From a bacterium (GTDB lineage Bacteria > Bacillota > Clostridia > Lachnospirales > Lachnospiraceae): DNA of 39,930 nt. A program made the position numbers and the translations under genes. Below, piece by piece: positions 1-14,638 of this stretch. Every line of letters starts with the position of its first letter. Within the stretch, counting starts at the first letter, position 1. The stretch is taken from assembly GCA_030524485.1 (NCBI GenBank), contig JAUNGR010000007.1, forward strand, positions 1 to 39,930, read 5' to 3'. The notes below the pieces were generated by a model that saw only the letters and a list, made by a program, of their open reading frames with translations, was not told where the DNA came from and made no database searches.

Positions 1-36
1 TACTACTTCTCTTCTTACTTCTTACGATTTCTCTTC

Positions 37-2280
37 TTATGAGAATTTCTTCATTATCTTTATCACGCTATTGCTTAATATCCACAGTGCAATGGCGTTG
101 GGGATGACCATCAATCCATTAAAGAAGTCCGACATCGACCACACGAGTTCTAGTTTTAGCACAGAGCCTATGACTACGCACAGCACAACGATTATGGAGT
201 AGATGCGGGCTGCCTTATCTCCAAATAGGTATTTGACATTCACCAAACCAAAGAAATGCCACCCAAGAATCGTTGACAGTGCGAAGAAGAAAAGGCACAC
301 AGCAACGAAAATCATTCCAAAGGAACCAAAGCTTGTGGTAAAGGCTGCCTGTGTCAAGGCTGTTCCTTCCTTGCCACTGCCCAAAACCCCTGTGGTCAAA
401 ATCGAAAATACCGTAAGATTTAAGATGATGAAAGTATCCACAAACACGCTTATCATAGCTGCCAATCCCTGCTTATGTGGATTTTCGACCTTTGCTCTTG
501 CGTGAGCATGAGGGGTGGAACCCATACCTGCCTCGTTGGAAAACAATCCTCGTGCCACACCAAAGCGAATGGCCTCACGCACACCGATTCCAGCTCCAGC
601 TCCCAGCACAGCCTCTGGGTGAAAGGCTCCAATAAAAATCATGCGGAGGGCAGCAGGAAGAGCTGTGATGTGCAAAACAATTAAAATAAGGCTTCCCACA
701 ATGTATACGCCTGCCATAAAAGGAACCAACTTCTCTACCACAGCAGCCAATCGTTCCACGCCTCCCAAGAAAATCACGGCACAGATAAGGGCAACCACCA
801 GTCCCACTGCAAGAGAAGGGATGGGAAGATTCCAAGCTTGAAATACTTCCATGAAAGCGGCACTGATGGAGTTGGACTGCACCATGTTTCCAGCAAAGCC
901 CAGTGCCAAAATCAAAAAGATGGCAAAGCAGGCAGCCAAAATCTGTCCAAATTTTCCTTTGCAGGCAACTCTGATGTAATAAACCGGTCCTCCTGTCACT
1001 TCTCCATTTTTTGTGGTGGTTCTATGCTCCTGAGCGAGAACCGCCTCAGCGTAGATAGTTGACATGCCAAAAAAGGCACTGAGCCACATCCAAAAGATAG
1101 CTCCAGGTCCACCACTGATTAGAGCTGTAGCAGCTCCGGCAAGATTTCCTGTTCCCACCTGTGCGGCTATGGCTGTGGCAACGGACTGAAAAGGAGTCAT
1201 CTCTCCTGCTGCCCGATTTGCCTTATCCTCTTTTGAAAACATAGTTCCAAAGACTTGATGCCACCCTTCCGAAAATTTCCTGATTTGGATGCAGTGGGTC
1301 CTTATTGTGTAATACATTCCAGTTCCGCAAAGCAAAAAAATCAGAATCACATTCCATAAAACATTGCTGGCGTTATCGACAAGCTGTGTCAGCATTTCCA
1401 TACCCGCTGTACTATCCAGATAGCGAGGTTCTTTGGGGGCACGAAAGTCCACCGGTGCAAGGTCATCTGTCTGGCAGGTCTCTGCAATAAAATAGTGAGC
1501 CACCTTCTTTGCTGTCTCCAGATATTCTGGCTTTTTTGTGTGGCGGTAGGCCAGTGCGTAACCGTAGATGGCCCAAGATTGTCCCCTCGACCAAGCAGAA
1601 CCGCTGGCATAGCCCTGTCCCGCTGGTGTCTCTAGTAGTTCTCCCGTGTAAGGGTCTAGCACAATAATGTGGTTGCAGGAGCCATCTCCTCTCACGGTAT
1701 ATTTCATCAGAGTGTCCGCATGGTCCATAGCAATGAAGCCAAATCTGGGGTCTTCTAGGACTTCCTGTGCCCAGAAAAGAAGTTGAATGTTCATCATGCT
1801 GTCAACAATGACCCATCCAGAGCGGTCTCGATTCCAAGAACGGAGAAATTTTCCTCTTGGATTATAGCGTCCAGCCAACAAATGTGCTGCGTGTAAGCCT
1901 CTTGCCTTTGCTCTTTCGTTTCCAGTCAAACGGTAGTCGGCCACCGCAGAGTGCAGCCACATAAAACCGACATCGTGGTGTAAACCCGTGTACTGCGTAA
2001 AGGCTTCATCCAAACGCTCCTCCACCGCTTCGGCTGTCTTTTTATACTTTTCTTCCCCAGTGGCGTTATACATCAGCCATAACATTCCTGGCCAAAAACC
2101 GTTTGTCCACCAAACAATGTCGCTTTCTCCCTTGTCTTCTTGATATACGCCATCTATGGCTATGTAAGGAATCCGACTGCCAATTCGGTCGCACTCAGCG
2201 GACATCTTGGAGCTTATCTTACCAAAGACCTCCTCTGCCCAACGAGCATCCTCCTCGTTTTGTAGGTATTTTCTGCTCAA
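37..2280 (-). CDS. GH88 unsaturated glucuronyl/galacturonyl hydrolase (3'-truncated) fused in frame to a sodium:alanine (AGCS) symporter
   Basis: Residues 1-293 look like GH88 hydrolases, which remove the unsaturated uronic acid left by polysaccharide lyases. Both expected catalytic aspartates are visible, D103 in HHDVGFMW and D160 in IVDSMMN, as is the WSRGQSW motif. The match stops at LDSTAG, before the last helices of the usual alpha/alpha barrel (about 80 residues short of the roughly 370 expected). From M294 (base 1401) the protein is a complete 454-residue AGCS symporter with many membrane segments and motifs such as AAQVGTGNLAG and SNEAGMGSTPHAHA. The join falls exactly on the methionine expected to start a symporter, and no ribosome binding site precedes it. 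The start is TTG at 2280, seven bases after AGAGGAGG, overlapping the EIIA stop by four bases. A soluble hydrolase joined to an integral membrane transporter is not a family architecture I know. A deletion or an assembly join is likelier than an evolved bifunctional protein. Confidence 0.85.
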   Translation of the reverse strand: MSRKYLQNEEDARWAEEVFGKISSKMSAECDRIGSRIPYIAIDGVYQEDKGESDIVWWTNGFWPGMLWLMYNATGEEKYKKTAEAVEERLDEAFTQYTGLHHDVGFMWLHSAVADYRLTGNERAKARGLHAAHLLAGRYNPRGKFLRSWNRDRSGWVIVDSMMNIQLLFWAQEVLEDPRFGFIAMDHADTLMKYTVRGDGSCNHIIVLDPYTGELLETPAGQGYASGSAWSRGQSWAIYGYALAYRHTKKPEYLETAKKVAHYFIAETCQTDDLAPVDFRAPKEPRYLDSTAGMEMLTQLVDNASNVLWNVILIFLLCGTGMYYTIRTHCIQIRKFSEGWHQVFGTMFSKEDKANRAAGEMTPFQSVATAIAAQVGTGNLAGAATALISGGPGAIFWMWLSAFFGMSTIYAEAVLAQEHRTTTKNGEVTGGPVYYIRVACKGKFGQILAACFAIFLILALGFAGNMVQSNSISAAFMEVFQAWNLPIPSLAVGLVVALICAVIFLGGVERLAAVVEKLVPFMAGVYIVGSLILIVLHITALPAALRMIFIGAFHPEAVLGAGAGIGVREAIRFGVARGLFSNEAGMGSTPHAHARAKVENPHKQGLAAMISVFVDTFIILNLTVFSILTTGVLGSGKEGTALTQAAFTTSFGSFGMIFVAVCLFFFALSTILGWHFFGLVNVKYLFGDKAARIYSIIVVLCVVIGSVLKLELVWSMSDFFNGLMVIPNAIALWILSNSVIKIMKKFS

Positions 2281-2702
2281 AAAAATGCCTCCTCTCCCTC
2301 GTTTGCATCCTTTTCTAAGACCACTCGTTTGTTCATATCCTTTGCCATTTGAATCACACGGTCAATCTCCTCATCGCTTAAAACCTGTGGGTTGAGCAGC
2401 AATTCGATTACCAGTCCCATGTTCATGCCAGCGATGAGTTTGACATTGGGATACGTTGTGAGGATGCTCATTCCATTGCAGACACTGCCTCCTAAAAGAT
2501 CTGCCACTATCAAATGTTGCGTTTCCGGGTGCTCCTTTACGGATTGTTCTATGGCATCCACCATGCTCTGATAATGCTCTCCTGGCATCATGCCCATGCA
2601 GCTTAGTTCCTTGTGCTCGCCTACTATCATCTGGATGGAATGAAGCATTCCTTCGGCCAATTTTCCATGAGAAACCAAGATGATTTTTTTGTCATGTTCC
2701 AT
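2277..2702 (-). CDS. PTS mannose/fructose/sorbose-family EIIA component
   Basis: This 141-residue protein matches the EIIA domain of the mannose-family phosphotransferase system (LevD/AgaF type). It would pass phosphate from HPr to EIIB during sugar uptake. The phosphorylated histidine is in ILVSHGKLAEG near the N-terminus, and DLLGGSVCN is the usual loop. The ATG at 2702 follows GAGGAGAAAGGAT. The stop overlaps the next start, so the two are translationally coupled. In other Firmicutes such an EIIA often sits with a GH88 hydrolase and the EIIB, EIIC and EIID genes for uptake of glycosaminoglycan or pectin disaccharides. None of those partners is present here. The protein is therefore an orphan in this window, consistent with a deletion downstream of it. 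Confidence 0.9.
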   Translation of the reverse strand: MEHDKKIILVSHGKLAEGMLHSIQMIVGEHKELSCMGMMPGEHYQSMVDAIEQSVKEHPETQHLIVADLLGGSVCNGMSILTTYPNVKLIAGMNMGLVIELLLNPQVLSDEEIDRVIQMAKDMNKRVVLEKDANEGEEAFF

Positions 2703-2840: not shown

Positions 2841-4010
2841 CTAGGGATGCACCGTAAGCAGTATGGGGGTTTCGACCTCTACTTTCTCCCATTCCAAACA
2901 GATGCAAGCGTCCGTTTCCAAGAAGGGGATGTTTATCGCGGACGTGCTTTGCCGAATCCGAACATTTTGAAAGATAAGCCTCCCTCTTTCTCCGTTTCCG
3001 CAAAAAATGGAGCTTTCCTTCATGTCTTCGATTTGGCAATCTTCAAAGCGAAGGCTCCTAAGCGGATAGAGATCCTGATGCAGCCCTTCTTTCCTGTAAT
3101 GGTAGGAAAGAAGCCGCCTAGCATGGCGAATTTCGCAGTGGGACAGTACTATGTCATCCCCCTCTTCCTGCTTCTCATCCGAGCGGATGGAATAATACTT
3201 AAAGATGGCATGGGTGTCAAAGCTTCCCTCGGATAGGTGGGGATACTTTCCAGGTCCCTCAAAAAGGCAGCGTTCTAGCAAGATATGCTGTCCTCCAATA
3301 CGCAGGCTGTTGCAGGCCGTATTCAGATAACAATCGCTTACCTTTAAATGTTTGATGTCATATCCAGCAATGCAGTCATCTCCCGTCTCCAGATGACAGT
3401 GTTTAATATTGATGTTGCGGCAATGGTGCAGGTTAAAGCCATCGTGTCCTGCTAATATGGTCACCCCTTCTATCGCAACTTCCTTGCAGCTATCCAGCTG
3501 ATGGGACCAATTGGCACTGTTTTGAAACGTGTAGCCTTGCAGACGGAGATGGTGGCAGCGGCAAAAGATAATTCCCATGGGGCCTCGAAAGCCCTCCTCC
3601 CCCTTTGTATCTTGGCAGTCCTGCCCATCAAGCACAGCTCCCTCCTCTCCCACAATGCAAATGTCTTCTTCATCGAAGGCACAGATAAGACCATAGATGT
3701 AATAGGGGGGAAGATTCCACTCTTTCACGTAAAATGGATCCTTTAGGTATCCCAGTGTACTTGGCACATGAAAGTCTTCATAGTCTTTATAGTCGTTGCT
3801 TCCTAAGAGCTTGGCTTTCGAAAGAAGATGTAGGGTGATATGGGAATAGAGGCGAAGACTTCCTGTCAGGTAAGTTCCTTCGGGTATGAGAACCTCTCCT
3901 CCTCCAGCTTTGTGGCAGGCATCGATGGCTGCCTGCAAAGCCTTGGTTTGCAGATGGGTGGCATCGCTTTTGGCACCATAGTCCAAAACAGAAAAAATGT
4001 TTGTTTTCAT
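2841..4010 (-). CDS. GH28-like polygalacturonase / parallel beta-helix glycosidase
   Basis: This 389-residue protein has the pectinase beta-helix pattern. The N-terminus reads FSVLDYGAKSDATHLQTKALQAAIDAC, typical of GH28 and pectate-lyase-3 proteins, here quoted only as the opening motif DYGAKSDAT and the AIDAC that follows. Mid-protein motifs are SHQLDSC, AGHDGFNLH, LETGDDCIAGYD and NSLRIGG; the double aspartate of TGDDCI is the usual GH28 catalytic pair. There is no signal peptide, so it probably acts inside the cell on imported oligogalacturonides. The ATG at 4010 follows AAGGAG, whose bases overlap the end of the histidine kinase gene 12 bases upstream. It is the last gene of the operon. 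Exact substrate (galacturonan or rhamnogalacturonan) cannot be read from the sequence. Confidence 0.82.
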   Translation of the reverse strand: MKTNIFSVLDYGAKSDATHLQTKALQAAIDACHKAGGGEVLIPEGTYLTGSLRLYSHITLHLLSKAKLLGSNDYKDYEDFHVPSTLGYLKDPFYVKEWNLPPYYIYGLICAFDEEDICIVGEEGAVLDGQDCQDTKGEEGFRGPMGIIFCRCHHLRLQGYTFQNSANWSHQLDSCKEVAIEGVTILAGHDGFNLHHCRNINIKHCHLETGDDCIAGYDIKHLKVSDCYLNTACNSLRIGGQHILLERCLFEGPGKYPHLSEGSFDTHAIFKYYSIRSDEKQEEGDDIVLSHCEIRHARRLLSYHYRKEGLHQDLYPLRSLRFEDCQIEDMKESSIFCGNGERGRLIFQNVRIRQSTSAINIPFLETDACICLEWEKVEVETPILLTVHP

Positions 4011-4022
4011 CTTGTTTTCTCC

Positions 4023-5387
4023 TTAAAAAATAGAATCTTCTGCGTCTATAATTGGGAAAGAAAGGTTTACAATGGTTCCTATGCCCTCTGTGCTGATAAT
4101 CTCAATGCCATAGTCCTTCCCAAAGTTTTTTTGAATCCTATCATAGGCATTTTTTAGGCCGACATGATGCCAGCCATCCTTCTCATCGTTTTCTAAGGCC
4201 ATCATGCGGATGACATCCAGTGTGTTGTATAGATAATGGGGTTTTATCTGCGATTTTAGGGCATCCAATTCCGCCTCACGTTGGCGAATTTCTGCAACGT
4301 ACACCTTATGGATGTGCGTGTTTAGCTCCTCCGCCATATGATTGAGTCCCTCTGCCAGATGTCCCAATTCGTCCTTGCGATTCACAGGAATCCTCACTTG
4401 TAAATTTCCGGTTCGTATTTCCTTCATACCCTGTTCCAATTCTTCTACGGGTCGTTTGATTTTCTGAAGAAAGAAACGGTACAGAAAAATGAGAATCAAA
4501 AAGGCTGTGCTCACAAAAATAAGAATGCTTTGCCTTGTCTGACTCAGGTTTCCCAACATAGTTGCTTTTGGCACAGAAAGTGCTGCCACCCAATTGCAGT
4601 TTGGGATTTGCTCGTATACAAGATATTCTCCTTTTTTTGAAAGGCTTTCTCGTGCCAGCTGACTTCCGGTTTCGTGTGGATTGGTGCTATAAATGCAGGC
4701 TCCTGTCTCTGTTAGGAGACGAAACACCCCACTTTGGGTGACATCCACTTCCTGAAGAACGGAGGAGAGCTTGGTAAGACTGACATCCAAATAGACCTTT
4801 CCTAAGGTCTGATTTATGTTTTGCAAGCTGGAAACATCTTGGTAAGGTCTTGCAAATGTGAGGACTGTGTTGGTGGACTGCGGAAAGTAGTCGTCTAGAT
4901 GGGTGGGGTAAAGGGAGAGTTTTCGCACCACAGTGTGTTCGCTCTCCCGATACATTTTTTGCTTGTCTGTTTGCAGCACTTTCTGGGGGTTGGCCGTTGC
5001 GTAATAGACCTCGCCGCTTTCTTCCACAAAGAAGACGCTGGCAATGCGGCTGTCCCTTGCTAAGATTTCCTTTAGCAGACTCTGAATAAGCAGCTTTTTT
5101 CTTGCCTCTGTCGTTTTTGGGTCTTTTAGAAGCTGCCACAAAAAACGACCGTCTTCCAGGGGAATGTCGTAGATAAGCTTGGTGGCGGTGTTGCACTCTT
5201 CTACCATTTCTTCTACGTTGTGGGCGGCGTAAGAAACTACATGTGACATGTCATCCAACATCACCTCTTTCATGTTGCGGGAGAATTGCAGATAGAACAA
5301 AAGGCCAGCGATGCATAGAGGCAAAAGGCCTAGCCCTAGATAGGCATAGGTTAATGTATAAAAAATGCTATTTTTCCATTTGTGCAT
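4023..5387 (-). CDS. YesM/LytS-type sensor histidine kinase with most of the ATP-binding domain missing
   Basis: The 454-residue protein has a first membrane segment at about 11-33, an extracellular sensor region to about 285, a second membrane segment at 287-306, a HAMP domain at 308-360 and the phospho-acceptor box with H384 in IKPHYLYNTLD. In this family about 110 residues should then follow, carrying the N box and ATP lid. Here MALENDEKD (to residue 404) passes straight into GWHHVGLKN, normally found near the end of the catalytic domain, followed by an ordinary C-terminal tail. Frame and ends are intact, which points to an internal in-frame deletion near 4170-4185. Autophosphorylation is unlikely without the lost segment. 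The ATG at 5387 follows GGGAGG by six bases and overlaps the binding-protein gene by 20 bases. Its expected partner is the response regulator at 6632-8221. Confidence 0.9.
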   Translation of the reverse strand: MHKWKNSIFYTLTYAYLGLGLLPLCIAGLLFYLQFSRNMKEVMLDDMSHVVSYAAHNVEEMVEECNTATKLIYDIPLEDGRFLWQLLKDPKTTEARKKLLIQSLLKEILARDSRIASVFFVEESGEVYYATANPQKVLQTDKQKMYRESEHTVVRKLSLYPTHLDDYFPQSTNTVLTFARPYQDVSSLQNINQTLGKVYLDVSLTKLSSVLQEVDVTQSGVFRLLTETGACIYSTNPHETGSQLARESLSKKGEYLVYEQIPNCNWVAALSVPKATMLGNLSQTRQSILIFVSTAFLILIFLYRFFLQKIKRPVEELEQGMKEIRTGNLQVRIPVNRKDELGHLAEGLNHMAEELNTHIHKVYVAEIRQREAELDALKSQIKPHYLYNTLDVIRMMALENDEKDGWHHVGLKNAYDRIQKNFGKDYGIEIISTEGIGTIVNLSFPIIDAEDSIF

Positions 5388-6702
5388 AGCCTTCCTCCCA
5401 ATATTCTTTTACTTCTTTGGCGATTTCTTCCAAGGAGCGATTCTCCCAGAGTACCTCCTGAAGTTTTTGGTTGAAGAAATTTCGAAATCCCTCTGGCGTT
5501 GCCTCATCTCCCAAGAAGGCATCGCAGGGAAGGATATTTTCTTGGTTGGCAGCAGATAGAAGGCGGCGGGTTTCGGTTTCCTCTATCTGTACCTTGCGTC
5601 TTACGACAGAGTCCGCACTCATGTTGGATAAGACCTGCTCGTAGTGACCTTCGGAATAAAAGAATTTTAAAAAGCGGACAGCAGCCGCAAAGCGGGCCGG
5701 ATCGTTCTTGCTCTCGGCGGCAATGCCCCATTCCACAGAGTCATCAAGTTCCATATAGGTCTTTCCGTTTTTTCCAGAAAGATAAAAAAAGCCGAGTTCT
5801 ATCTTAGGATTAAGGTCTTGAATCTGTCCTATCATCCATGGACCACTGTATAGCATGGCAGAGGATTCCGAGGCCAGTTCCTCCGCAGTCTGGCTGTCAG
5901 AAAGCGTTTGGCAGCGGGAAGCGATGTAATGGTTTTGGCTGAGTTTTCGAAAATCGCTCAAGGCCTCGATCAGCTGGCTGTGTTCTAATTCCCTTGGATT
6001 TTCACCCAACAGATAATTTTGATAGAGATAATCGCCCCAAAAGCTCATATGCCACAAATCCGCTCCACCTACCGCGATGGGGTTGTATCCAGCTTGGAGC
6101 AAGCGATCGCACAGTACAAGGAACTCCTGCCAGCTTTTGGGTTCTGAGAGTCCTAGACTCTGAAATAGACTGCGGTTGTAAATTACCCCTCTTGTGGTGG
6201 TATAGCGGGGGATGGAATAGCAGGGAGAGTGCAGCATTCGTTCTTCCTGTATCAGGGAGCTTAGTTCCTCTGGCAATTCCGCTAGGTATCCTGCTTCGGC
6301 AAAGGCAAAGGCCTCCCTAAGTTCTACCACATCGTAGAATTCTTCCTGTGCAATCATGGCCTTGAGACGGTCAGCAAAGCCTTGGTTTTCAACTTCCTTG
6401 GGGGAGAAAATTTGTACCTCAATGTCTGGATTTTCTTGCATGAATTGTTCTACCGTCTGTTCTATGCTGTTAATCCAACGAACGTCTCCCTCGGAGTAGA
6501 CCACCCGCAGTTGGGTTTTGGGAGGCGAGAAAGTCAACTCTGTTTGTCGTAAGGCGGGAAGGAGACAAAACAAAAGCAGAAGGAGCAGGAGAAGGACCCC
6601 GCTTCCCAGCAAAAGCTGCTTTTTTAGAATTTTATGCTTTCTCTGTTTTTTCTTTTCGGTATTCACTGGGGCTTTTTCCGTATTTTTTGTTAAAATTTTC
6701 AT
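5368..6702 (-). CDS. Membrane-anchored family 1 extracellular sugar-binding protein
   Basis: The 444-residue product resembles ABC-type sugar-binding proteins (family 1): after the anchor come QFMQENPDIEVQIF, the RGVIYNRSLFQSLGL motif and NPIAVGG. The N-terminus is strongly basic, followed by one hydrophobic helix at about 29-50. Its only cysteine there, in LLLFC, does not fit a lipobox, so I expect a transmembrane anchor rather than a lipid. No ABC permease genes lie nearby. It is sandwiched between a response regulator and a histidine kinase, which suggests a sugar co-sensor role rather than transport. The ATG start at 6702 overlaps the regulator gene by 71 bases with only a weak ribosome binding site. 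A GTG at 6666 is an alternative. Confidence 0.8.
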   Translation of the reverse strand: MKILTKNTEKAPVNTEKKKQRKHKILKKQLLLGSGVLLLLLLLLFCLLPALRQTELTFSPPKTQLRVVYSEGDVRWINSIEQTVEQFMQENPDIEVQIFSPKEVENQGFADRLKAMIAQEEFYDVVELREAFAFAEAGYLAELPEELSSLIQEERMLHSPCYSIPRYTTTRGVIYNRSLFQSLGLSEPKSWQEFLVLCDRLLQAGYNPIAVGGADLWHMSFWGDYLYQNYLLGENPRELEHSQLIEALSDFRKLSQNHYIASRCQTLSDSQTAEELASESSAMLYSGPWMIGQIQDLNPKIELGFFYLSGKNGKTYMELDDSVEWGIAAESKNDPARFAAAVRFLKFFYSEGHYEQVLSNMSADSVVRRKVQIEETETRRLLSAANQENILPCDAFLGDEATPEGFRNFFNQKLQEVLWENRSLEEIAKEVKEYWEEGYAQMEK

Positions 6703-8221
6703 TGAATTGTCTCACATTCTTGTAGCCGATTTTTTCGGCAATCTCATAGGCTTTATAATCGGTGTGCAGCAATAACTTTTCTGCCTCCTCCATGCGAAGG
6801 TCGGTCAGGTAGTTTTTAAAGTTTTTTCCCATATTTTTCTTGAAATAGCTGCTAAAGTAAAAGGAGTTCATTCCAAAGGTCTGTGCCATCCATTCTAAGG
6901 TGAGATTTTCACCAAAATGCTGCTGTATGTACTGGCGAATGCGTACTATCTCTTTGTGCTCGCTGCTGCCGCCCAGATGAATCTGTTCGCACATGTTGTA
7001 GAAGAAACGGCGTATGGCCTCGCAGGTCTGTCTATAAGTTGGCAGCAGGCGGATCTGCTCCATGCAGGCCTCGCCTTCCTGAACCCAAGAAATATCCAAT
7101 AAATATTGTTCACAGAGGGTTTGAATCAAATCGGCCATCATGAGATTGCAACGATTGAGGGCTGCAAAGCGGTTTCCAAAATGCAGGTTTCGTATCACTG
7201 AAAAAATTTTCTTTAACTCGTTCTCAACCGAGGATGGATGGTGGAGGCAGGCATCTAAAAGGTTTTGGAAGCACTCCTGATAATCCTCAAAGGACTCTCT
7301 AAAATCCTTCTTCACGTCCTGATACCAGATAAGTTCTTCCTCCGTAAAGTAATAAAGTTCCATCGCAAAGCGAGAGGTTTTGTAGGCAAGAGGAAGATTG
7401 GAGATATCCTCTGTCTCCACCCCTATTCCCACCTTAATGCTCAGATTTTGGTGGTCCGAGGCAACGGCAACCAATCTTCGAATACGAGTCTCTATTTCCG
7501 CTTGGCTTTCCTCCTCCCCCAAGAGCAAAATGGCATAACAGGTGGAGGTGTCTTTTTTGACTACAAAGCCGCTTTGGCTTTCCTCTAACTTTTTTTGAAT
7601 CTTGTTAGCCGCTGAAAATTTTAAAAGTTCCTGCATCTTTGCATTCTTTTCGCTGCGTCCCAACAAGTAAAAGCGAAAGGCAACACCTAACATGCGTTTT
7701 CCCTCTATGGAGATGTTTAGGCTGGAAAATTGTTGGTATAAATCTTCTCTGGCATATTCCTTGCTTCCGTTTATTTTCTGGAAGATATAAGAGAGGCGGT
7801 CTTCGGTCTCTGTGGTTTCTAGGATACTGAGGCGGCTCTGTGAATCGATGAGATTTACGGCCTTTTGAATGGCACGAATCAATTCTTCCGGCTCCACAGG
7901 CTTAAGTAAATAATCCACAGCTCCATACCGTACCGCATCCTTTGCATAAGAAAATTCCTGATATCCACTGATAAAAATTACCTTGGCAGAAAGCTCTCGC
8001 CTTCCAATTTCCTGAAGCAGGCCAAGACCGTTTAATCCGGGCATTGCAATGTCCGATAGGACAAGTTCTGGTTGTGTCTTCTCAATCAGTTGCAAAGCCT
8101 GATTTCCGTCCTTGGCCTCTCCCACAATCTCAATGCCTAGCTTTTTCCAGTCAATCAATTTTTTTAAGCCCTTTAAGATGACGGCTTCGTCATCCGCAAG
8201 AACGGCTCGTATGCTTGCCAT
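6632..8221 (-). CDS. YesN-type response regulator with AraC-family DNA-binding domain
   Basis: The 529-residue protein has a receiver domain at 1-120 with acidic pocket D10-D11, phospho-acceptor D57 in LVLSDIAMPG and K107 in LLKPVEPEE. A long linker follows, then an AraC/XylS double helix-turn-helix at about 430-525 (FYFSSYFKKNMGKNF and AYEIAEKIGYKN). Such regulators usually activate adjacent carbohydrate genes when phosphorylated by a YesM-type kinase. The open frame extends upstream to 8434, but ATG at 8221 is chosen because it opens the receiver motif ASIRAVLADDE and follows GGGGAGAG by six bases. The start lies inside the 3' end of the GH43 gene (32-base overlap). Its expected kinase, at 4023-5387, appears defective. 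Confidence 0.93.
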   Translation of the reverse strand: MASIRAVLADDEAVILKGLKKLIDWKKLGIEIVGEAKDGNQALQLIEKTQPELVLSDIAMPGLNGLGLLQEIGRRELSAKVIFISGYQEFSYAKDAVRYGAVDYLLKPVEPEELIRAIQKAVNLIDSQSRLSILETTETEDRLSYIFQKINGSKEYAREDLYQQFSSLNISIEGKRMLGVAFRFYLLGRSEKNAKMQELLKFSAANKIQKKLEESQSGFVVKKDTSTCYAILLLGEEESQAEIETRIRRLVAVASDHQNLSIKVGIGVETEDISNLPLAYKTSRFAMELYYFTEEELIWYQDVKKDFRESFEDYQECFQNLLDACLHHPSSVENELKKIFSVIRNLHFGNRFAALNRCNLMMADLIQTLCEQYLLDISWVQEGEACMEQIRLLPTYRQTCEAIRRFFYNMCEQIHLGGSSEHKEIVRIRQYIQQHFGENLTLEWMAQTFGMNSFYFSSYFKKNMGKNFKNYLTDLRMEEAEKLLLHTDYKAYEIAEKIGYKNVRQFNENFNKKYGKSPSEYRKEKTEKA

Positions 8222-9935
8222 CGTTTTCTCTCCCCTCGTAGTTCGCTTTTTCGTATTCTTGATAATAGAAAGAATCAAAATCCGCATAGCAGCTGTGGTC
8301 GTACAAATCTTGCACACACATTCCCACCATGGGGCCTGTAAAGACCAGAGCACTGTCTCGAATGAAATCTTCAGACAAGGATTCGGCCGAAAGTGTGTCT
8401 GCAAGTGGCAAAAATGCCTCTGCATCAAAGGCATAAAAGAAGTTTAACTTTTCTCTGTCCACTCTCACTTCCAGACGAATTCGAGTGCTATCCTCTGGTA
8501 TTTGTATTCTTCTTTCCCCTAATTTTACCATGGTTTTGCCCTTTGTACATACCAAAACATCTAAAATTCGACAGCCAAGCTCCTCATCATAGGAGACATA
8601 AGCATACATGTAGTTTTCGGTGTTGTAAAAGCAGGTTAGTCCGGCCATCTGCTGGTGGCTTTTGGGGGTAAATTCCATGATGGTTCCTGCTTGGAAGCGT
8701 ACACTCTGCCACCGTCTTGCTACTAGGGTTTGTCTATGCAGGGAAGCGATGGACTCTTGTCCGTATAATCGCAGAAAACTCGGACGTTCCTTTAGAGAGA
8801 GTTTATCTTCCAGAGGAATGCGTAGGCTGTGAAAATAAGGGGGAAGTTCTGCCTCGTCAAAGTCCGTCTGTGTGCTGGCATCGGTATTTTGTACGAGAAG
8901 CTCGGCTCCAAGCGGAGCTTCCAGCGTGAGAGGCGGTACCGTTTGGCAGTTCCAACCAGCAGAGGTGGGCGGTTTCGGAAGAATGACCGTTCGGTCAGGC
9001 AGATGGATTTCGCCTCCCTCCCGTTTGCTATAAGGAGCTGTTTGTGCTTGTGCTAGTCTGGGCCAGCCTTGCTCCCAAATAATTTTTGCCAAACCGGTTT
9101 CTCGCCCTAGAATGCAATTTCCTCTTTGCAAGGTGAGAGGTCTGGCACAGATGAAGGTGATGTACCACTCTCCAGCTGAGGTTCTTAAGAAACTGGCATG
9201 ACCGCATTTTTGTAGAGGGGAGTCTGGAGCAAAGCGTGTAGAGATGAGAGGGGTGTAGGGAGATAGTTCATAAGGTCCCCAGAGGGAAGTGGCACGTGCA
9301 ACCACACTGGCATGGCTAAATCCCGTTCCACCTTTCGCACAAAGCAGATAATAAAAGCCATCTTTTTTTAGAATTTGTGGTCCCTCTGTCGTTCCCCATC
9401 CACTGCCGTGAAAGATGGTTTTCGGCTTGCCCACAAGTTTTAAAGCTTCCAAATCGTATTCTTGAATGGCAACGCCATTAAAGTTGGGTTTGTAAGGTCG
9501 GTAATCCCAAAGCATACTCATCACATAACTTTTTCCATCGCTATCGTGAAACAGTGCTGGGTCAAAGCCGGAGGCATGGACGAAGACGGGATTGCTCCAT
9601 TCTCCATCTATGGTCTCGCAACTCATAATATAATTTAGTGTATCTTTGAAACATTGGTCGGTCTTGACATCCGTAATCAGCAGCCAAAATTTCCCCCTAG
9701 CCCAAGAAAGATGAGGTGCCCAGATGCCGCCGCTGTTTCGGTCGCCTCTGAGAGAGAGTTGTTCTTTTCGGCAAAGAGGTCTTGCTACCAGTTCCCAGCG
9801 AATCAGGTCTTTGGAGTGATAAATCATAATACCCGGCCACCACTCAAAGGTGGAGGTGGCTATGTAGTAATCCTCCCCCACCACACATACACTGGCATCT
9901 GGCTGAAAACCTCTTAAAATTGGATTTGTAATCAT
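8190..9935 (-). CDS. GH43 glycosidase (beta-xylosidase / arabinofuranosidase type)
   Basis: A five-bladed GH43 catalytic domain spans about 1-320. The three expected acidic residues are visible: D13 in GFQPDASV, D125 in GFDPALFHD and E184 in GTTEGPQ. A beta-sandwich domain follows to the C-terminus, the layout of GH43 beta-xylosidases (about 530-580 residues). There is no signal peptide, so it probably cleaves imported xylo- or arabino-oligosaccharides in the cytoplasm. The ATG at 9935 follows AAAGGAGC by six bases. It is the first gene of the operon and runs 32 bases into the response regulator gene, so glycosidase and regulator are co-expressed. Sequence alone does not settle whether xylose or arabinose is the main product. 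Confidence 0.9.
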   Translation of the reverse strand: MITNPILRGFQPDASVCVVGEDYYIATSTFEWWPGIMIYHSKDLIRWELVARPLCRKEQLSLRGDRNSGGIWAPHLSWARGKFWLLITDVKTDQCFKDTLNYIMSCETIDGEWSNPVFVHASGFDPALFHDSDGKSYVMSMLWDYRPYKPNFNGVAIQEYDLEALKLVGKPKTIFHGSGWGTTEGPQILKKDGFYYLLCAKGGTGFSHASVVARATSLWGPYELSPYTPLISTRFAPDSPLQKCGHASFLRTSAGEWYITFICARPLTLQRGNCILGRETGLAKIIWEQGWPRLAQAQTAPYSKREGGEIHLPDRTVILPKPPTSAGWNCQTVPPLTLEAPLGAELLVQNTDASTQTDFDEAELPPYFHSLRIPLEDKLSLKERPSFLRLYGQESIASLHRQTLVARRWQSVRFQAGTIMEFTPKSHQQMAGLTCFYNTENYMYAYVSYDEELGCRILDVLVCTKGKTMVKLGERRIQIPEDSTRIRLEVRVDREKLNFFYAFDAEAFLPLADTLSAESLSEDFIRDSALVFTGPMVGMCVQDLYDHSCYADFDSFYYQEYEKANYEGRENDGKHTSRSCG

Positions 9936-9981
9936 GGTTTGCTCCTTTCACTCGTTCCTTAAATTCTCTGATGCTATGCTT

Positions 9982-9987
9982 AGTGTA
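9982..9987 (-). promoter_or_regulatory. Possible -10 box for the GH43 operon
   Basis: TACACT occurs about 50 bases upstream of the GH43 start, matching the -10 sequences of the EIIA and beta-glucoside PTS promoters in this window. No good -35 box is found 16-18 bases upstream, as expected for a promoter needing an activator such as the operon's own AraC-type regulator. The A/T-rich stretch at 10010-10060 could be its site. The rest of 9936-10100 holds nothing I recognise. Confidence 0.3.
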
Positions 9988-10100
9988 CAACAATAGTGGC
10001 ATTTTCCCTTAGATTTTTTCTTTTTTCTTAAAAAAACTCCACTTTCTCTAAAAAACAACTCCCCTCTTTGTTGTGAGCACTTGAATCCCCACCGAAACAA

Positions 10101-10157
10101 GGAAGCCCCCACCCAACGCTTATGTCTTATGACATAGAAGCGTGGGTGGGGGCTTCC
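10101..10157 (-). terminator. Long hairpin terminator after the 6-phospho-beta-glucosidase gene
   Basis: Two arms of about 26 bases (GGAAGCCCCCACCC... and its complement) pair with one single-base and one two-base bulge around a TTAT loop. It begins four bases past the stop codon on the minus strand and is followed by TTGTTT. The stem is far longer and more GC-rich than the other terminators here, and the U-tract is short. Confidence 0.7.
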
Positions 10158-10161
10158 GTTA

Positions 10162-13587
<3,426 letters not shown>

Positions 13588-13632
13588 CTATTTTTCACTT
13601 CCGTAACGGCACGTCCGTGTTTTGATGTTGCC

Positions 13633-13661
13633 AGTGTATCACAGAGTCAATATGACGACAA
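13633..13661 (-). promoter_or_regulatory. Predicted sigma-A promoter for the bglP-bglA operon
   Basis: On the minus strand TTGTCG (13656-13661) and TACACT (13633-13638) are 17 bases apart, about 55 bases ahead of the EIIBCA start. An ACGG/CCGT dyad lies between the promoter and the gene (about 13604-13618) and could be an operator. No antiterminator target hairpin of the LicT/BglG type is evident, so initiation control by the RpiR-type protein is the simpler reading. Confidence 0.6.
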
Positions 13662-13700
13662 GACAAGCCGCTTCGATAGATTCAGTGTTCCAAAATTCAC

Positions 13701-13734
13701 AAAAAAAGAACCGCCATATTTGAAACAGCGGTTC
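13701..13734 (-). terminator. Rho-independent terminator after the rpiR-type gene
   Basis: A 7-bp GC-rich stem (GAACCGC at 13728-13734 read on the minus strand, complement at 13708-13714) is followed by seven T residues. It separates the regulator transcript from the bglP promoter. Confidence 0.88.
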
Positions 13735-13771
13735 AAAATTACTAAAAAAGAAACAAATTCCAATCCAAATT

Positions 13772-14638
13772 TCACTCTTCTTTATCTGAAAATTGATTTA
13801 ACAGAATCGGCATATGGCGCAGCATCTCAATGGAAGATTTTATGTGTTCCTCCTGACAGCGGGATAAAAGTAAGGAAAAGAAAATGTCAAACACATAGTT
13901 GGCTGCTGCAAAGGAAGCAATCACATCCAAACTTAGTACAGAGTCTCGGTTTGGAATCTCCACCACCTGATGGAAGTGCTGACTGGTAATGGCATTGTGT
14001 GGGCCTAAAATTCCCACCACATGACTGTTGCTGGCCTCCCGAAGATATCTTGCCATACGGCTTACGGTACGATTTGCTCCGGTAAAGCTGATAAGGAAGG
14101 AGACCGTTTTTTTGTGCTTTCTTGCTGCCAAATAATGAGCATTGATGCTCTCGTAAGCATGACTTTCCAGTCCCAAAGTAGCAAACTTAAAAGCGGCGGA
14201 TTGTGCTAAAATATAGCTGATGCCGGTGCCATAAATATCAATGCATTCTGCCGTCTGCAGAGCCTGATTGATTTTTCTCATCTCATTTTTGTTCAAAGTC
14301 AATCGAGTATTGGTGATTGCCTTGTCGTAGAGTCCGGGTAGAATTTGAATGATATCTCCATAAGAAGTATCTTTTGTAATGGGTTCCTCTGCCAAAATCC
14401 GATTGATTCGGGTATTCTGACTCATCTCTTCCACCAATTTTAATTTAAATTCTTGATAACCAGAAAGTCCTAACTTTTGGCTAAGACGTACCACAGTGGC
14501 TTTGCTGGTAAACGATGCCCTCGCCAGTTCTTGAGCAGACATATCCGGAATCTGGTTGAGATTTTCTAAAATATAATGAGCCACTTCTTTTTCATGGTTG
14601 GTGAAGCCTTCTGCTTCCTGTAACTGCAACAATAGCAT
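13772..14638 (-). CDS. MurR/RpiR-family transcriptional regulator
   Basis: The 288-residue protein has an N-terminal RpiR helix-turn-helix (MSAQELARASFTSKATVVRL, about 33-52) and a C-terminal SIS sugar-phosphate-binding domain from about 110 (IDIYGTGISYILAQ). Such proteins sense a phosphosugar and usually control an adjacent uptake operon. The neighbouring EIIBCA permease and phospho-beta-glucosidase are the obvious targets, by inference from position. The ATG at 14638 follows GGGAGG by five bases. The gene has its own extended -10 promoter and its own terminator, so it is a monocistronic unit upstream of the PTS operon. Confidence 0.92.
   Translation of the reverse strand: MLLLQLQEAEGFTNHEKEVAHYILENLNQIPDMSAQELARASFTSKATVVRLSQKLGLSGYQEFKLKLVEEMSQNTRINRILAEEPITKDTSYGDIIQILPGLYDKAITNTRLTLNKNEMRKINQALQTAECIDIYGTGISYILAQSAAFKFATLGLESHAYESINAHYLAARKHKKTVSFLISFTGANRTVSRMARYLREASNSHVVGILGPHNAITSQHFHQVVEIPNRDSVLSLDVIASFAAANYVFDIFFSLLLSRCQEEHIKSSIEMLRHMPILLNQFSDKEE

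Follow-up and report, generated by a model that had tools for sequence, protein, structure and literature searches.

Does an open reading frame that joins a hydrolase of family GH88 to an AGCS sodium:alanine/glycine symporter encode a new kind of protein, or is it the trace of a loss from the genome or of an error in its assembly? We addressed this question in the window, a whole contig of 39,930 nucleotides (C142) from a Lachnospiraceae draft genome of 195 contigs and 86% completeness. The open reading frame listing, Pfam and NCBIfam confirmed the in-frame join and the 747-residue frame proposed in the first-pass annotation. The frame opens 7 bases 3′ of its ribosome-binding site, contains no internal stop, and comprises a GH88 part followed by a full-length symporter at residues 294-747 (Table 1). 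Both parents are unmistakable, and the joined frame is therefore not due to chance. A scar formed once, or an error in assembly, accounts better for the evidence than a new kind of protein does, and we lean towards a scar left by the recent decay, through real loss or rearrangement, of a uronate-sugar cluster.

Table 1 Features of the window around the junction (positions counted from the first letter of the window).
Feature	Positions	Strand	Remarks
Contig end	1..36	.	36 bases past symporter stop
Fused ORF	37..2280	-	747 residues, TTG start
AGCS sodium:alanine/glycine symporter, complete	37..1401	-	454 aa plus stop, without usual leader
Junction ATG	1399..1401	-	symporter start codon, possibly also native GH88 Met codon
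GH88 part, unsaturated glucuronyl hydrolase family	1402..2280	-	residues 1-293, ~86 C-terminal residues missing vs L044
Mannose-family PTS EIIA, intact	2277..2702	-	without adjoining EIIB/EIIC/EIID
Ribosome-binding site AGGAGG	2288..2293	-	before TTG of fused frame
GH28	2841..4010	-	no segment missing vs 4 relatives
Sensor histidine kinase	4023..5387	-	~130 codons lost in frame at residue ~402 (window about 4182)
Solute-binding protein, response regulator, GH43	5368..9935	-	no segments missing vs 9, 10 and 18 relatives

The hydrolase part matches Glyco_hydro_88 (PF07470) at residues 55-242 (E 8.9e-10) and retains both aspartates at the catalytic positions, its HHD and IVD motifs aligning to HHD and IID of PDB 1vd5; we take the numbering of these residues, D88 and D149, to be that of Bacillus UGL. 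It stops at residue 293-294, whereas the GH88 of the closest related cluster (locus L044) has 378 residues, and a complete (alpha/alpha)6 barrel of about that length was not found. What remains is well conserved, with a private change at 1 of 110 otherwise invariant sites (0 to 10 in the 20 other rows, filtered for >64% identity and near-full coverage). With no sequence decay of this kind, the loss event would be recent. A separate GH88 tail was searched for on the other contigs of the 86%-complete assembly and none was found, and two other GH88 genes of the assembly match to, or almost to, their end. Among the relatives, the GH88 of a Thomasclavelia MAG (L061, about 10730-10870) can be followed in a single frame as far as query residue 249 and is apparently frameshifted upstream of the DSTAG region.

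The symporter had been called complete, and this was borne out: Na_Ala_symp matches residues 353-746 (E 2e-125), and residues 309-746 cover positions 1-424 of the 424 in the NCBIfam agcS profile (TIGR00835; 417 bits against a cut-off of 272.65), which marks it as full length. Among AGCS loci, L034 and L063 are closest, and the identity to them (80 and 82%) is compatible with that of MutS (77 and 75%). Private changes occupy 9 of its 208 invariant sites, compared with 0-2 of about 200 in L034, L063, L035, L036 and L037, 12 of 211 in G004 and 65 of 264 in G029, and may be a mild hint at relaxed constraint or a longer branch.

At the junction, the window sequence is G-M-E-M-L-T-Q and ends in the start of the symporter (L034 begins MEMLTQ). 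GH88 relatives of at least 64% identity have G, then V, M or L, then C-(A/G)-(A/V)-C-G in 20 of 21 rows, the one out-of-register row being L061. Residue 294 had been read as the methionine that naturally begins the symporter; it is indeed encoded by an ATG (1401-1399), but this is not the symporter's alone, as the two closest GH88 relatives, L045 and L044 (78%), also carry Met at this position. The junction methionine is not assignable to one parent gene, and its ATG may, from these alignments, belong to both. As estimated from relatives at 78-82% identity, the bases common to the parents are the ATG only rightward of the join (all six Met-bearing GH88 relatives tried) and 0-1 bases leftward (five leaders tried). 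About 3-4 shared bases is far under the word lengths used by assemblers.

Relatives of the symporter gene carry a leader. A glycine riboswitch lies 5′ of the symporter in 5/5 AGCS loci of the named genome collection, and all seven checked genomes with a close AGCS have at least one. None was detected in the window, nor in its assembly (150 of 212 first-look candidates scored), the same-genus genome G001 (150 of 253) or G066 (150 of 251). The ribosome-binding match before the symporter start extends over 5-6 bases in 7/7 relatives and over 3 bases in the window. The occurrence of riboswitch and ribosome-binding site in the relatives and not in the window supports a loss of the leader. One genome shows a tandem pair of glycine aptamer matches 5′ of its AGCS gene (G029:C12:115736-115915). 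The surroundings of the symporter vary: it is the sole gene common to L034 and L063, some downstream genes are common to L035, L036 and L037, single distant genes are common to L034 and either L037 (49%) or L035 (33%), and a gene of 20-41% identity recurs at varying places in L090, L093, L035 and L037.

The first-pass annotation had held the GH88-AGCS layout to be no known family architecture, a view supported in all searches made. A match across both parts was confined to the window's own genome among 61 genomes searched, as it was for a junction-spanning query against 397 genomes of the same family (E<=1e-22) and for 398 genomes of the phylum (E<=1e-105, at most two candidates per genome being scored among the rows listed). 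These genome sets overlap, each includes the window's own genome, and their strict E limits would miss very diverged fusions. None of 31 named loci of the genome collection has both parts fused, and of 461 plasmid records with a match, none covers 80% of the fused query. Two matches overran the junction and were rejected as fusions, one by 34 residues (G379, a plain full-length GH88) and one by 32 (L052, a locus without AGCS). A literature search returned no description of a GH88-symporter fusion among the matches listed, which is not proof of absence. The same architecture in independent genomes, as expected of a GH88-AGCS family, was not found. The two genes are not neighbours in relatives either: a symporter was near GH88 in 0/26 GH88 loci, with flanks of up to 10 kb a side and some much less, and GH88 was near the symporter in 0/5 AGCS loci.

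The gene order upstream of the junction indicates what may be missing. The window has GH43-RR-SBP-HK-GH28-EIIA-GH88 and then the symporter; L044 has GH43-RR-SBP-HK, another gene, EIIA and GH88, followed by EIIB, EIIC and EIID (all Pfam-confirmed) and then three more genes. The window thus has the gene order of L044 as far as GH88, except that GH28 occupies the position of the other gene, and this correspondence supports a loss of EIIB, EIIC and EIID. In L044, the three genes that the first-pass annotation had proposed to look for after GH88 are present, and no symporter accompanies them within the flank covered. EIIB directly follows GH88 in four of the 26 GH88 loci (L044, L045, L053 and L059); in the remaining 22 it precedes GH88, lies further away or was not found. 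No EIIC was detected in the window's assembly with the L044 query, in a search that held no positive control, and no EIID (PF03613), the latter search being positive in 3/5 genomes searched (G001, G066 and G062; negative in G000 and G061) and in 3/14 controls. The first-pass annotation had attributed the join to a deletion from inside the GH88 gene to the symporter start, removing the rest of a PTS cluster. Synteny upholds the loss of EIIB, EIIC and EIID, mainly by the closest clusters (4/26), but not a single deletion or its extension to the symporter start, given the 0/26 GH88 loci with a symporter downstream of the cluster and the 0/5 AGCS loci with a GH88.

Two further observations concern this cluster. 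In another MAG, a closely related cluster (L045:11349-12649) has an EIIB shortened to 112 aa, which corresponds to profile positions 1-105 of 148. This short gene overlaps an open frame whose match to the cupin domain of mannose-6-phosphate isomerase is weak and below the cut-off. Neither EIIC nor EIID is present in the available stretch of this locus, which would represent a further loss, or a misjoin, in the corresponding part of the cluster. In the window, seven sugar-cluster genes at 2841-14638, among them a GH1 6-phospho-beta-glucosidase, a beta-glucoside PTS and an RpiR regulator, have codon-use scores of -0.043 to 0.072, below most genes from 15874 on, and look by composition as if they were acquired.

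A second large in-frame loss lies in the sensor kinase of the same operon, 2.8 kb from the GH88 junction and in the contig interior. Aligned to the L044 kinase, the window kinase matches over residues 1-402 and then 402-450, skipping about 401-532 of L044. It is short by 128-133 codons in frame against all five relatives that cover at least 80% (L042, L044, L045, L046 and L057); kinases of L040, L041, L043, L047 and L048 matched the first part only and are uninformative on the loss. HATPase_c occupies residues 469-577 of the L044 kinase and was not matched in the window kinase; judged from these alignments, the kinase has lost most of its ATPase domain. The same comparison revealed no missing segment in seven other window genes. 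As a baseline, 1.3 Mb of G001 was searched for partners of 209 own ORFs, and 54 had one with at least 60% identity and 80% coverage. At least 25 codons were missing in one of the 54 (32 codons), and more than 32 in none. Large in-frame losses are hence not habitual in this assembly but are located in this operon, and two of them in one operon against 0/54 favour real decay of the cluster. The kinase loss took our estimate for the preferred reading from an even chance to a little above it, lowered that for a chimeric contig from somewhat short of even to distinctly below it, and made a functional fusion, very doubtful beforehand, slightly more so. Absent from the first-pass annotation were this loss (about 4182), the missing riboswitch and ribosome-binding site, the methionine also seen in GH88 relatives and the proximity of the contig end.

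The main competitor of a real scar, to which we give a lesser though still substantial probability, is a chimeric contig, in which the last 1.4 kb with the symporter came from elsewhere in the genome or from another genome in the sample and was attached to the GH88 gene by the assembler or through a chimeric fragment; no fused gene would exist in nature, and the kinase loss would be a separate matter. The first-pass annotation had allowed for such a misassembly. A contig end that lies within 1.4 kb of the junction and just beyond the symporter stop speaks for it, as do the fragmented and incomplete draft, the uniqueness of the join among the genomes searched, the lack of a close AGCS in G001 (98% complete; best 42%) and the absence of any other gene common to L034 and L063, which leaves the symporter without a link to this contig. 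Against it stand the ~3-4 bases common to the parents, which no assembler word should bridge, and the kinase loss, an example from the contig interior of a large in-frame loss in this operon. The symporter's codon use and GC also fit the host, the two parts lying within the genome's range at the 13th and 27th percentile of 182 ORFs, although codon use and GC were not decisive as a test of a foreign symporter. No overlap with window positions 1-200 was found among the other contigs of the assembly. The missing GH88 tail, riboswitch (150 of 212 candidates scored) and EIIC/EIID were likewise found on no other contig; an 86%-complete assembly may lack them, and their absence does not settle the question of a misjoin.

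An evolved functional fusion, with GH88 tethered to a transporter and both made and used as one protein, could draw on the open frame, the two retained aspartates and the symporter intact across its whole profile, yet we regard it as very improbable. No second genome, locus or plasmid has a match over both parts, ~86 of 378 GH88 residues are missing, and GH88 substrates are sugars whereas AGCS cargo is amino acids. Topology is a further obstacle. The N-terminus of AgcS probably faces outward, although a literature search, including the available text of PMC12795558, returned no confirmation of this orientation. In a hydropathy and charge scan, crude enough to miss several helices, the symporter N-tail is free of K and R in the window and in all but one of the four relatives scanned (L037, with one K), and the loop after the first hydrophobic segment is rich in K/R; from these charges the N-terminus looks outward-facing, while GH88 works in the cytoplasm. 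An outward N-terminus preceded, as in the window, by a 293-residue cytoplasmic domain should block insertion of the symporter. Equally far-fetched in our judgement is a recent selected capture, in which a switch-free symporter would be made from the sugar operon as a transporting GH88 fusion; amino-acid uptake would then be wired to sugar signals, and sugar functions would be in the process of being shed by in-frame losses that spare the operon's downstream translation.

The preferred reading, decay of the cluster, is thus supported by the tiny shared sequence, the kinase loss, ordinary codon use, the agreement of AGCS and MutS identities and the undecayed GH88, and weakened by the near contig end, the lack of a close AGCS in G001, the separation of the two genes in relatives, the 22 of 26 GH88 loci without EIIB directly downstream of GH88 and its reliance on one assembly. 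Sequence from about GH88 codon 294 on would have been lost, comprising the last ~86 codons, EIIB, EIIC, EIID and whatever lay beyond, along with the riboswitch leader and ribosome-binding site of the symporter gene. The broken ends would have met at about 3-4 common bases with the frame kept, and the second in-frame loss would have removed most of the kinase ATPase domain. We infer an event in cells and in one step; that it was a single simple deletion is an assumption, because the symporter was not seen near the GH88 cluster in any relative. GH88 would be dead since its barrel could not close, the PTS would be dead since EIIA alone remains, the kinase would be unable to bind ATP, and the symporter would be translated only as a GH88 tail, free of glycine control; the fusion product is probably dead in both halves. 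If real, the locus shows sugar-use genes being eroded through in-frame losses (kinase, GH88/PTS), and a transporter of a riboswitch-controlled kind now subject to the signals of another operon. Caution is advisable in either case, as automated gene calling and profile searches will present a GH88-symporter fusion as a protein of this genome.

The closest known systems of the hydrolase part are the unsaturated glucuronyl hydrolases 1vd5 and 2zzr, the latter from Streptococcus agalactiae. Residues 29-303 of the window align to 16-292 of 1vd5 (E 1.5e-47), and unlike both enzymes the window GH88 lacks the C-terminal ~85 residues, leaving the barrel incomplete. PDB 2ahf, which we take to be the D88N mutant, has HHN where the window GH88 and 1vd5 have HHD. 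The glycosaminoglycan (GAG) cluster of S. agalactiae (PMC6837340) combines GH88 with a mannose-family PTS, and the window retains GH88 and EIIA of this combination but is missing EIIB, EIIC and EIID; the substrate may differ. In that study, replacement of EIIB-EIIC-EIID abolished growth of S. agalactiae on hyaluronan, and by analogy sugar import through the mannose-family PTS route should be impossible for the window cluster. A symporter gene of Streptococcus pyogenes has an RF00504 leader, a glycine riboswitch that lowers its expression at high glycine (PMC5829553); the same kind of leader is present in the close relatives examined and absent in the window. The symporter itself resembles AgcS, the sodium/alanine symporter of PDB 6cse, to which window residues 299-746 align at 5-442 (E 2.9e-87), and differs from it in having a GH88 in frame before it.
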